Part shown: piece after piece, positions 45,401-51,400 of the stretch
How the letters are laid out: the number at the start of each line of letters is the position of its first letter
Numbering within the stretch: the first letter of the stretch is position 1
Origin: Branchiostoma floridae
Lineage: Eukaryota; Chordata; Leptocardii; Amphioxiformes; Branchiostomatidae
Direction of reading: 5' to 3'
DNA: 64,000 nt
Assembly (NCBI RefSeq): GCF_000003815.2
Contig: NC_049981.1
Location: 24,691,675 to 24,755,674 of the forward strand
Translations under genes and position numbers: made by a program
The notes under the pieces: model-generated
Database searches by the model: none
What the model saw: only the letters and a program-made list of their open reading frames with translations
Told to the model about the DNA's origin: nothing

Positions 45401-48400
45401 TGTGACAGGAGATAGATGCCATGTGTACAGATGGTGTCATCACTGTGGATGATGGAGATGACGATGAAACTGACATAGAAGAAGAGGAGGAGGAAGAAAA
45501 TGGTAAGAGATTTTTTTCATTTATTGTCTCAAAGCTCATGCTACTTTGTGTATGTCCATTGTAAAGCCTAGAGGCTTATGTTACCAAAACTGTTAATAAT
45601 CATGAATTAAACATGTTGACTACGATATATGTTCACATTGACATTCAAACTACTTTCCAACATCTTAATGTCATGTTTTACCTTTTACCTTAAGAATGAT
45701 AATAAAGAATGATATTGATTAAAAGCAAGCCACAAAAAGAAGTATTATTATCTAATTATACAGTGGAAGCCAGTTAATTGCACCTAGGATAAACGCACAC
45801 TTCGGGTAATTGTACGGAATCCCAAAATCCCAAACCGTCTCCCATTCACTCCATTGTTAGTGACTTCGCTTATCTGCACAACAAAAAATCACCAACGCCG
45901 GATAATTGCACGAAAATTTGCCAAACATCGTCATCAAATTGACTGAAAATGCGTGCTAAAAATCGTCAGACACGGTATAAATAAGCCGAAAACATGTATG
46001 AAATTGTTATTGGGATCAAAAGAAAGCGATATTGTGGGGTCGGCACCATGAAGAGACGCCCGCCCGCTAAAGGTCGTCAAACCCCGCATTACGATTTGGC
46101 AGACAACTTGCTGTGACATACTCAATAAAAACTGTTCTCTATCTGTCCATTGTCTAATTACTGTAATTAGGATCGCAGAGAAATACTTATGCAGTGGTTT
46201 TATGTTCTTGGCAGCCATTCAGAAACAACACAGCGACTCGGGGCATACAGACGGACATAACACTCAACTTCGGCGTTGCAATGCTTTAGTTTCGTGATCA
46301 GGCAGCTACATAACGTATACAGTAACTTACTTTTAGTTTCGATTTCAAGTGCATTGCAGTACGATGTTTCCTGAAGACATGTATATGACGTCCGGAGCAC
46401 AACAGGTACAGCACTACTGTAACACGTAAATAAACTGTGCGTTGTACTACCTCCCATACCACCTCTCGGCCCCTCCGACCGTGGTGATGCGGTCCAAATG
46501 ACCAACTCCGCATTATGGCACACGCCGGATAATTGCACGGAATTCACTGGCAAATTGGGTGTGCAATTAAGCGGCTTCCACTGTATAGCTTTTGGTAGCC
46601 TACAGAAAATTCTAAAATGCATACAGTCAAACCTGCTCGAGTGACCACCTCTACTCAGCGACCACCTGGCCATTTCGACCACTTTTTCTCGGTCCCGATT
46701 TTTTTTCCCATTGACGTAAGCATTAAGCGACCTTTTCTCAACGACCACCTAGCCAACGCGACCGCGACCGGACCAAATAAGGACCCATAATGACCGCATC
46801 ATTTTCAAAATTGAGGTTTTCATCCATTTCTTTGTGATAACCAGCGCGATTTTGTGCCAAAATCGGCCAGTTTGCGTCAGATTTTGACTGCTGTTACGAT
46901 GTTATGTTTAGAATAAAGATGGCGGCGGTCAATGGGTGGGTCAATGGGGCAGTCTACTGAGTACTGTAATATGGGAGGATATTTCGTTGTAAGAAAATCC
47001 GAATTCAGTTGTTACAGAAGTTTTTTTTTAAAAATCTATATCATTATAAAGTGAACGAATGCTGAAGTGTATATAGCCTCATACTTTTTTGATAAAGATC
47101 TGTGTAGCTGATACCTTTTTAAGAAAGATCTGTGTGAGTGCTTTTGTCCAACTGTACTGTATATTTACCCATGGGTAAGTTCGCTATCGTGACGTACCGG
47201 GCGTCGAACTCGAAAGGTGCACTGTAGTTATTTCAGATACGGCGATCAAGAACACAGTGATGCATAAAGGCTTGTATGGTAACTGACAACATCAAAGTTT
47301 CCTTACTGTCTAAAACGTTAGTGTACAAATGTTGAGCCTTAAAACATTGTATCGTATATAAGCTCGATAAAGGCTTGGGGTTAAATTTACAATTTACAAT
47401 GTGCGTGTTGTATTTGGCACTTAAGACCTCGCTTCTTTGCTTGCGTGCAGTTGGCTTGCTATTTCATATTTGCCATTAAACACAATGCAAACCATTTATA
47501 GTATGCATCGGGCATGTTTTGAGTCGATACTCTTCTCAGCGACCACCTGTCCAAATTGACCTCTTTTTTTTTGGTCCCCCAGGTGGTCGTCTTGAGCAGG
47601 TTTGACTGTATTTCAAGACACAGCAAAGTTGCATTTATACACAGTTATTACACTGATATGACTATATTGCATAATGCACATGTGAGAGCTATTTTGTTGT
47701 TGAAGAACCTGATTTTTTTTCACACAGAAGGTTTGAGAAAGGAGTTCATTTATTTTGACAAAGAGTATCTAGAAGGGAAGCAAAATGTCCTGGGAACAAC
47801 TCATAGCGGAGATGTATTTTTTGCCATGTTCTTTAAATGACTGAATATTAAACGAATAGTACAGCTGTATTACATACATGTAAGATGTCCGATTCAGCTG
47901 AACATCATTCCTGTCCTGAGGCCCAGTATGTATACCCATCAAACAGAGCAGCCCTGAGGTCAGGTTTTCTGCACGGTCGTCATCCACAGGTCGGACAGGA
48001 TAGTAAATCAGTTATAAAGATAAGTAATACTTGCAACGTAGGGTCTGCGGTAGGAAATTTTTCCCCTAATTAATGGCAATCTTTCTATTCTGTTTTCAAC
48101 TCAATATCAAAGAAACCCACTGCAGATGGAGATTACATGGTTGACTATGGTTAATACTGTTACAGTAGTAGACTATCTAAGATTGTTTATTCAGACGATT
48201 AAAGTTGTACAAATCTAAGCAAGAACATCCCACAAGAAGGTTTCGATGTCTTCTGTGGTCCAGTGTCTGATGGCGTACTCCCGGTACAAGTTCCCGCTTC
48301 CATCCAGCAAAGAGATAGTGGCATCTGCGCCACGAACGTCTCGGATTTCAAGTCCGGGCAAGTCGGCGGCAGGACCGCGGAGAAAGGCTCTCAGCTCCGG

Positions 48401-51400
48401 GAGGTGCTTCAACTTTCATTGGAAACACAGCTGCAGTACCGCCCGGAAACTGCCAGAGGAGACCATCTTATCCTCCTCCTGGCAGCAGAGCCTGCAGTCC
48501 TGGAACAGCAGTGAGAGACCAAACAGCTGCAGCTTCTCACAGGTGCTACAGAGTAGTGCACTGCTGAAGCCCAACTCACTGCAGACTGCATGGTCATACT
48601 TGGGCATCTTTGCATCTCCTTTCTTTAAATCTGGATTGTTCACATCCTTGTTGTTTACATCATCAGGGTTGTTGTCATCAAAGGCAGAAACCAGGAGGAT
48701 CAGCAGTACATGGAACAGCCATGTAAGGGTTTGCCAAAGGTCCATCTTAACTATGGTGGAGTCAGGTTGTGTTAGGTCAGATCCAACTTCTTTGTATTTT
48801 ATCTAGCTGAGTTCCTCAACCTGATCAAGCAGTCATATGAACTGTGTCTCTTAATGTTCTTACGGTGTCCTCCTTAGACAGTTTCCTTGTGTATCAGAAA
48901 ACCTTCTCTTTTATATGCATAGGAGGTGATTGCACATACATGTACATGAACATGTAATGTCACTTGATCAATGAACTGAACAGTAGGCTATTGGACAATC
49001 CTCACATGTACAGTACAACAGGTTCCTGGTTGGTAGAGATTCAAGTCAAAGTTTCACTGCTCCATTCAGAATGACACGTTCACAACCTTGAGGATAGCCA
49101 GCCAGTTCCAGTTAAGCTCCCCCTGCCTCAGCCAGACTCACCAACTGCTGTGCTTGTCATGTACATGTAGATCACAGAGGAGCCTCTTCTGCAGTCCAGC
49201 TGTATTATAGGAACAGCCAACCACTGTGTTTTGAACTCTTCACAGTTCGTACTGACCAGATCCAGAGTTGCTCCTGATACAATGTTTTCTCACAAACCAA
49301 CCTGAGCCACGGCTCCACTTAAAACCCTGTACATCCTGGTTCTATGCAACTTTCCTGGTGGGGTCAACAAGTCCTGGAAAGAGCAATGGGCTTCTGAAGG
49401 GGGATGGGGTCAACGACTCTTAAATGTGGGTTACATTATAATGGTATTAAGTAGAGTTTATAGTTTCTAAACTCGGGGTCAAGGACCTCTTCTGTACAGA
49501 GGACTAGACATGACCAATACTTTCTACCCAGTATGTTAAAAATTTTCAAAGCAATATGCTAGTTTCACACCATATTTCAGTGGTTAGTAACCCTGACCTA
49601 GGACCAAGAAGTGGAATCCTGATTCAATGAATCTGTTTATACCGTATGTTCATATCATCGATGCATATCTGTTTCCTCTGTCACAAGCTTCCTACAGTAG
49701 ATCTGAATGATGACCCAATGTTTTTACTCAACTTCTATTTTCTGCAGACCCTTCCGTTCCCCCACCTGACAAAGACACAATTGATTCACTGAAGAGATAC
49801 TTTGGCCATGCTCACTTCAGGCCGTAAGTAGAATTTTATCTGTTTATTACCAAGACTTAGCAGCACATTAAGAAAAAAAAACATGTTTTATGGTATGAAT
49901 GTTTTTGGATGGCTTTAGACGTTAAACCAGAGAGTGAGTGAGTGTGAGTGAGTTAGATAGGAGTGTGAGTGAGTTAGATAGTGTTGAGATATCTGCTTCT
50001 GCTTGACTGTGTATACATGTAAGTTACTGTATTCAAGTAGCACTTACAACAGTTGGCAATGTATATTTTGAAATTTAACTGTTATGATTATGTCTTTGCA
50101 TTTCAGGATGCAGTGGAAAATTGTCCGCTCTATACTGAAGGAAAGAAGAGACAACTGCTGTATCATGGCAACAGGTAAATTTGAGTGCTAAGCTTGTCAT
50201 TCTAGTTGTAGCTCTGAGTAACATTTGTTGATGTTAAGAAATAACATGTTTGTGGTTGAAAAAAGAATATTGTCTTGATTAGTTTGCTGACTTTTTTGGT
50301 TATTCCTCTCTCTGACCCACAGGTTATGGAAAGAGTTTGTGTTATCAGTTCCCGTCTGTGTACACTGGTGGCACCACTGTGGTCATCTCTCCCCTCATCT
50401 CACTCATGGAGGACCAGGTCCTCGGGCTCAAGTACGTGGCTTTGGTGATAAACTGGGAATCTGATTCTCTTGGGATGTTATAAGTTAAGTACCTAGAATG
50501 AAATCATGAGAACATGAAATCTCAGTGGCAAGTACTCAATAATGTGCTTTTATCTGTTTAAAGTAAAAGATATTTTAAAGTGAAGTACAGAGTCATACTA
50601 ACTAGATTCCACCTCTGCATTTAAGAAAACAATTATTGTTCATTCTTTTTGTATGATATAGGGTTTTATACAAATTTTTTTTTTGAATGTATCTTTATAG
50701 TTACATCTATCAGTCAGGCACATTATTTTCATTAAATAATAAATGTTTAGCTGTTCAGAGATCTAAAATAAATGCAGAGCATAGCCTACTAATTTCTGTT
50801 CCCCTTGACTTAAAACAGTTTATCATTTGCCATAACTTATCTTATGGCATAAGATATGCATGATAGGAAACATATGTTATTCTTCTCAATTGTTTTCCAG
50901 AGTGGCTAACATTCCTGCATGTTTCCTGGGGTCAGCACAGAAGGACAAAGCAGATGTCATGAGGAACCTGATGAGGTAATTGTTTTTATTATCCTATGTT
51001 AGACATAAAGGCATTGTGTTATTTTTATAAACAATTAGATTGCCATTGTTGCTGTGATGTAAATATCATATAGCCAAATTGTTTTGAGATGTTGCAGCTG
51101 TTAAGAACCTACATGTAGGATCAGTAAGAGTACACTTGAGTCATGTAAGCCACATATTATTTTAAGTGCTTGAGCTTTTATGTTAAACACACCCTGTTTG
51201 AATCCATGAATTGTTTGAATTTACACAGTGGCATCACACAACGTAATACATTGTAGGTAGTTTTTTTTTACTCAAATCCCAGAGGTCCTGGGTTTGACTC
51301 ACCTGATCATGATATGCTCTGATGATGTGCCCTTGAGAAAATAATTTCACACAATTTCCTCACTTCTCTCAGGTTAAAATGTGTAGTACCTAGCTTGGGT

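Follow-up and report, generated by a model that had tools for sequence, protein, structure and literature searches.

In the Sep15/SelM family of selenoproteins, the active-site motif is CXU in SELENOF and CXXU in SELENOM (PMC9304195). The domain of human SELENOF has a reductase-like potential, and its Cys-rich domain binds UGGT (PMC9304195). Selenoprotein genes without introns are known from another family. The intronless SPS2 of mammals, a product of reverse transcription, took the place of the multi-exon gene in placentals (PMC3316567), and an intronless SPS2 of ascidians carries a selenocysteine insertion sequence (SECIS) in its 3′ untranslated region (UTR) (PMC4561486). In amphioxus, a survey of retrocopies counted 337 (PMC3136929), SYCP1 has been described as a retrogene replacement (PMC5803294), and a 2012 survey gave two Sel15 genes for Branchiostoma floridae (PMC3473315, Table 1). 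Here we describe an intronless SELENOF-like gene, the copy, that lies on the minus strand of a 64-kb stretch of the Branchiostoma floridae genome (the window; contig C3, 24691675-24755674), inside an intron of a plus-strand gene resembling WRN helicase. A multi-exon relative, the parent, was found by searching the same genome (513 Mb, 431 contigs). It is likely, as judged from sequence, that the copy is a functional SELENOF retrogene in which the UGA codon and the SECIS moved together, and which then diverged under selection on the protein.

The coding frame of the copy is a single exon of 176 codons, taking UGA as selenocysteine (Sec), that runs from ATG to TAG at 48215..48745 on the minus strand and contains exactly one internal TGA, at 48418-48416. 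The start codon is preceded by A at -3 and followed by G at +4, and the GC content of the frame is 0.52, against 0.43 and 0.38 in the 500-base flanks, with 0.63 at third codon positions. The encoded protein begins with a putative signal peptide, judged by eye rather than with a predictor (about residues 1-21, 48683..48745), followed by a Cys-rich region (residues 55-88, 48482..48583), in which all six Cys of the corresponding region of the parent are retained in the alignment. The 109 residues upstream of the UGA comprise signal peptide plus Cys-rich region. A Sep15/SelM thioredoxin-like domain covers residues 102-171 (48233..48442), with a Pfam Sep15_SelM match of E 1.7e-14 and 54.1 bits against a cut-off of 26, and the structure of Drosophila Sep15 (2a4h) also matches the copy, with E 5.2e-11. 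A first-pass annotation of this DNA had recognised the single-exon frame, the Cys-rich domain and a TGA at the Sec position of the family, and all three are borne out. The TGA aligns with the active-site residue of the family with one extra residue in between, so that the motif is C-F-Q-U (48416..48427) in place of C-x-U/C, a change to CXXU that had gone unmentioned.

The copy combines the Sep15_SelM domain and N-terminal Cys-rich region of SELENOF with an active site one residue longer than the CXU of that protein. The CXXU spacing by itself would recall SELENOM, but in the copy it occurs together with the Cys-rich region of SELENOF. From these features, the copy appears to be a descendant of SELENOF that is an active-site variant and not a typical member. 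By analogy with the human protein, it may be a disulfide reductase of the endoplasmic reticulum (ER) with altered redox chemistry, possibly with the same UGGT partner.

The first-pass annotation had suggested a search of the same genome for a multi-exon SELENOF parent, and such a gene is present on another contig. The genome has 5 matches to the Pfam family at E<=10, of which two exceed the cut-off: the copy and a contig-8 exon. When the joined exons of the parent served as query, 6 matches resulted, namely the five contig-8 exons and the copy. The coding exons of the parent are at G000:C8 9864590-9864634, 9865316-9865483, 9866080-9866143, 9873931-9873980 and 9876029-9876160. Its four introns have GT/AG ends and phases 0, 0, 1 and 0, and its active-site motif is C-G-U. 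The copy, on C3, runs unbroken across all four intron sites, so that every parental intron is absent at a different locus. Recent or repeated retroposition can be set aside, given that no other DNA match to 47700-48960 was found in the genome at E<=0.001.

Downstream of the frame, 232 nt past the stop and 433 nt past the UGA, there is a SECIS-like element (47926..47989, minus strand) with an AUGA / AAAA / UGAU core and a type 2 mini-helix, CCUG..CAGG, which is picked out by Rfam, by our own SECIS grammar and by a model, R1. The copy thus has a Sec codon and, in what would be its 3′ UTR, a SECIS-like element, although this scores below the gathering score of Rfam. The match to Rfam SECIS_1 has 17.1 bits and E 2 (4227 families, 516 bases), or about 5e-4 for that family alone; over 3.5 kb nothing was listed at E<=1, the match appearing on the shorter stretch. 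The grammar, which in its loose form recovers 6 of the 7 Rfam SECIS hits of the genome, gave 16 candidates in the whole window, 10 on the minus and 6 on the plus strand. Further cut-offs on energy and helix 1, chosen after the values of the copy element were known, left that element as the only candidate. R1 derives from a MAFFT alignment of six further SECIS-like elements in this genome, parent and copy excluded, with a structure written by hand. All six, taken irrespective of neighbouring selenoprotein genes, were Rfam SECIS_1 hits, three of them above the gathering score and three below, so R1 is not independent of Rfam. In the window, R1 has 3 matches, of which the copy element ranks highest with E 0.085, followed by one at E 2; on 801 bases unfiltered the element has E 0.0011. 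The parent SECIS is the better of 2 R1 matches on 40 kb (E 6.5e-5).

The parent SECIS (G000:C8:9880043-9880104; L005 9644-9705) lies 3.9 kb past the stop codon and reaches 37.5 bits with Rfam SECIS_1, which exceeds the gathering score (35). Rfam gave no SECIS on the first 1.7 kb past that stop, nor on L003 6000-10000, a stretch scanned before the last exons of the parent were known. The gap of 3.9 kb suggests a very long 3′ UTR or an intron within it. Among the 28 pairs that can be formed from 8 elements, that of copy and parent is the most similar (score 25, 20 of 25 aligned bases identical), a score reached by 0.3% of 2000 core-preserving shuffles. The sequence similarity is consistent with a modest case for homology of the two elements.

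The absence of introns together with the SECIS suggests that the copy was probably made from mRNA, and the first-pass proposal of a retroposed SELENOF copy that kept its SECIS is supported in this respect: four parental introns are missing and the element is slightly closer to that of the parent than to any other (25, the next 23). Alternatively, SELENOF might have been duplicated at the DNA level and have lost all four introns later. The event is old and no original tail is recognised, and stop and SECIS are 232 nt apart in the copy against 3.9 kb in the parent, all of which would be compatible with such a history; yet four introns gone, a location on another contig and the presence of only mRNA-derived parts that can be recognised are what reverse transcription would be expected to leave, and we regard a DNA-level origin as very unlikely.

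Several comparisons indicate that the copy diverged under selection on both sides of the UGA. The two proteins are 37% identical in the genome search, with 53 of 148 aligned residues identical in a global alignment. For the 61 codons of the mature part that precede the UGA, the identity between parent and copy is 0.51/0.66/0.31 at codon positions 1/2/3; for the 66 codons that follow, it is 0.42/0.65/0.35. Since a protein-guided alignment by itself favours position 2, 500 codon shuffles re-aligned in the same way served as a control. The shuffle mean at position 2 is 0.50 before and 0.47 after the UGA, and the observed values were reached in 1 and 2 of 500 shuffles, respectively; at position 3 the means are 0.32 and 0.31, and the real third positions are at this level. 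With second positions above the shuffles on both sides, the frame past the UGA has been under selection. Whatever constrained the parent, a copy drifting freely would have lost similarity in its second positions and its protein just as it did at third positions. The NG86 method gave a nonsynonymous divergence (dN) of 0.68, with the synonymous one (dS) undefined because of saturation. In a neutral simulation with substitutions only (5000 runs), no new stop arose in 0.3% of runs at 0.5 substitutions per site and in 0.04% at 1.0. Of the evidence in the sequence, conservation of the protein beyond the UGA argues most strongly that this codon has been read through.

A number of observations weigh against a copy that is functional and still decoded with Sec. 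The SECIS-like element is below the gathering score (17.1 vs 35 bits), is not among the 7 genome-wide SECIS_1 matches listed (150 of 11176 candidates scored), and obtains from R1 an E of only 0.085 in the window. The C3_L019 SECIS scores 23 with it, vs 25 for the parent's. Helix 2 has two pyrimidine mismatches, the stability of the 106-base fold is unremarkable (z -1.23, with 18 of 200 shuffles as good), and the minimum-energy fold lacks the canonical quartet. As regards selection, the gap between positions 2 and 3 was reached by 6 of 500 shuffles before and by 31 of 500 after the UGA, and Fisher tests on codon positions (1e-4 and 4e-4) overstate the case, because a protein-guided alignment is in itself enough to raise identity at position 2 above that at position 3. 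Moreover, the copy evolves fast: it keeps 22 of the 42 residues common to parent and Drosophila Sep15, and 27 of 73 residues of Drosophila Sep15 against 42 of 73 kept by the parent.

Some of these points would fit a retrocopy that was functional for long and now lacks Sec insertion, in which the UGA ends translation to give a 109-residue product of signal peptide and Cys-rich region. The weak SECIS, the 31 of 500 shuffles that reach the position 2-over-3 gap after the UGA, and an AATAAA between stop and SECIS, which would permit an mRNA without the latter, all favour this explanation. Against it, 66 codons remain open past the UGA with second positions above 498 of 500 shuffles, and of the 70 residues in the Pfam match, 61 come from that part; we consider the loss of Sec insertion unlikely. 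A decaying pseudogene with a SECIS-like fold due to chance might also explain why the copy is less conserved than the parent and why its SECIS is under the Rfam cut-off. It would not account for an open frame with third positions at the shuffle level and second positions well above it, for a domain at 1.7e-14, or for a SECIS-like element where one is expected, and it seems highly improbable. In this, the first-pass annotation, which had argued against a dead pseudogene, is upheld by the open frame and the second codon positions on both sides of the UGA. Its reading of a type 2 SECIS holds to the extent that a SECIS-like element is present at 47989-47926 and is the best R1 match in the window, at a score under that required by Rfam.

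Two AATAAA motifs on the minus strand may act as polyadenylation signals of the copy, a proximal one between stop codon and SECIS (48186..48191) and a distal one downstream of the SECIS (47749..47754). Beyond the latter is an A8 tract (47713..47720, minus strand). An A8 run 15-45 nt downstream of AATAAA is found for 1 of the 48 minus-strand AATAAA in the window, the one at 47754. The first-pass annotation had placed the AATAAA and the A8 at a tail-like spacing; both are there, at 47754 and 47720, but the A8 is unlikely to be the original tail, for which the copy seems too old and too divergent, although its rarity at this spacing (1 of 48) speaks the other way; it is probably unrelated to an ancient retroposition. 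An interspersed repeat (47490-47610), present in at least 39 other places, each at 93% identity (40 of 900 candidates scored), begins some 100 bases past the A8 tract, on the 3′ side of the nested gene. On the other side, a TATAAA 170 nt upstream of the ATG (48910..48915, minus strand) is a promoter candidate, one of 52 TATAAA on this strand of the window.

Since an AATAAA precedes the SECIS, a SECIS-less mRNA would be possible, and a polyadenylation form without one of two SECIS has been described for selenoprotein P (PMC5133445). In the parent, exon junctions follow the UGA at 28 and 78 nt; in the copy, none follows it. Under the 50-55 nt rule for junction-dependent decay, the parent could therefore be degraded and the copy spared, but the rule, as quoted in PMC4911915, was found there to be insufficient for the selenium response of selenoprotein mRNAs. 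It is conceivable, if rather doubtful, that the copy has become a neofunctionalised selenoprotein and that retroposition altered both its location and its regulation: its mRNA would escape decay at low selenium, and the proximal AATAAA would allow either a full CXXU reductase or a truncated Cys-rich protein binding UGGT.

The host intron (45503..49747, plus strand) is 4245 bases long and most likely belongs to WRN. The flanking exons, 45409-45502 and 49748-49823, join in phase 1, and seven joined helicase stretches match human WRN chains best (1.6e-98, against 4.7e-61 for the best chain other than WRN). The downstream exon (49748..49823, plus strand), recognised by eye as WRN-like, is in frame with the next exon, whereas the acid-rich upstream exon (45409..45502, plus strand) takes its WRN identity only from frame and splice phase. 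Neither RQC (PF09382) nor the exonuclease (PF01612) had a match in the window among the 5 matches listed for each (6 candidates scored), so that WRN identity rests on the helicase exons. Nesting of the copy in a WRN intron, as annotated at first, agrees with these WRN-like exons and their phase. The WRN-like helicase gene is seen in 43000-64000 (plus strand), and its exonuclease domain may be lacking, or may be in short exons or outside the window. Farther away, frames at about 31000-38000 on the minus strand, judged by eye, resemble HIF1AN (factor inhibiting HIF).

Taken together, the original observation is confirmed and its main interpretation supported, and the following course of events may be proposed. 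A spliced SELENOF mRNA, including its 3′ UTR, would have been reverse-transcribed long ago, and the cDNA would have integrated within a WRN-like intron in antisense orientation. UGA and SECIS would have travelled jointly, making selenoprotein decoding possible once a promoter had been acquired. Later divergence under selection on the protein would have led to a secretory-pathway protein with the Cys-rich region of SELENOF, a thioredoxin-like domain and a CXXU redox motif. We infer on these grounds that the copy is transcribed, inserts Sec, resides in the ER, binds UGGT and acts as a disulfide reductase. That an mRNA copy could carry the whole recoding system, as the first-pass annotation had put it, fits the locus, but SPS2 of mammals and ascidians had already established the idea (PMC3316567, PMC4561486), and retroposition of a selenoprotein gene with its SECIS is not new in principle. 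Because such SPS2 genes are known and two Sel15 genes had already been counted in Branchiostoma floridae, the surprise of a second SELENOF gene is moderate.

The passages of PMC3473315 on intron, exon and Sel15 do not describe the copy, and the main text of the retrocopy survey (PMC3136929) has no mention of seleno or Sep15. No literature joining selenoprotein, retrocopy and SECIS was found; none on the copy gene appeared among the best 20 of 465 matches for SELENOF, retrogene and intronless; and among the best 15 of 118 matches for Branchiostoma with Sep15 names, only PMC3473315 and PMC2874816 hold Branchiostoma. The CXXU variant, its nesting in WRN and its coexistence with a multi-exon parent were not found in print among these matches. 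Parent and retrocopy in one genome, with introns after the UGA or none and with CXU or CXXU, offer a natural experiment, in which the share of introns in the response of selenoprotein mRNAs to selenium could be tested directly, as could the effect of active-site spacing on SELENOF chemistry.

Among known systems, the copy is most like SELENOF, including the multi-exon parent, with which it shares signal peptide, six-Cys region, Sep15_SelM domain, active-site UGA and a downstream SECIS. It differs from the parent in being intronless, at about 37% identity, in having C-F-Q-U instead of C-G-U and, following the signal peptide, a linker that is longer, acidic and rich in Asn, and in its SECIS, which is weaker and close to the stop. 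Fep15 (SELENOE) of fishes is likewise a SELENOF paralog, and has Sec but is not known to have the paired Cys. Compared by description and not by sequence, it differs in that it is reported only in vertebrates and has partly conserved introns (PMC3316567). With SELENOM the copy shares the CXXU spacing and a related thioredoxin-like domain of one Pfam family, but the Cys-rich region distinct to SELENOF sets it apart, again by description and not by sequence (PMC9304195). Retroposed SPS2, that is SPS2b of mammals and the gene of some ascidians, is similarly an intronless selenoprotein gene derived from mRNA (PMC3316567, PMC4561486), and the copy would add a further family to these genes, for which the movement of the recoding signal with the mRNA is already known. 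In placentals and those ascidians, the SPS2 copy took over the Sec form; here, in another family, parent and copy coexist and have diverged.

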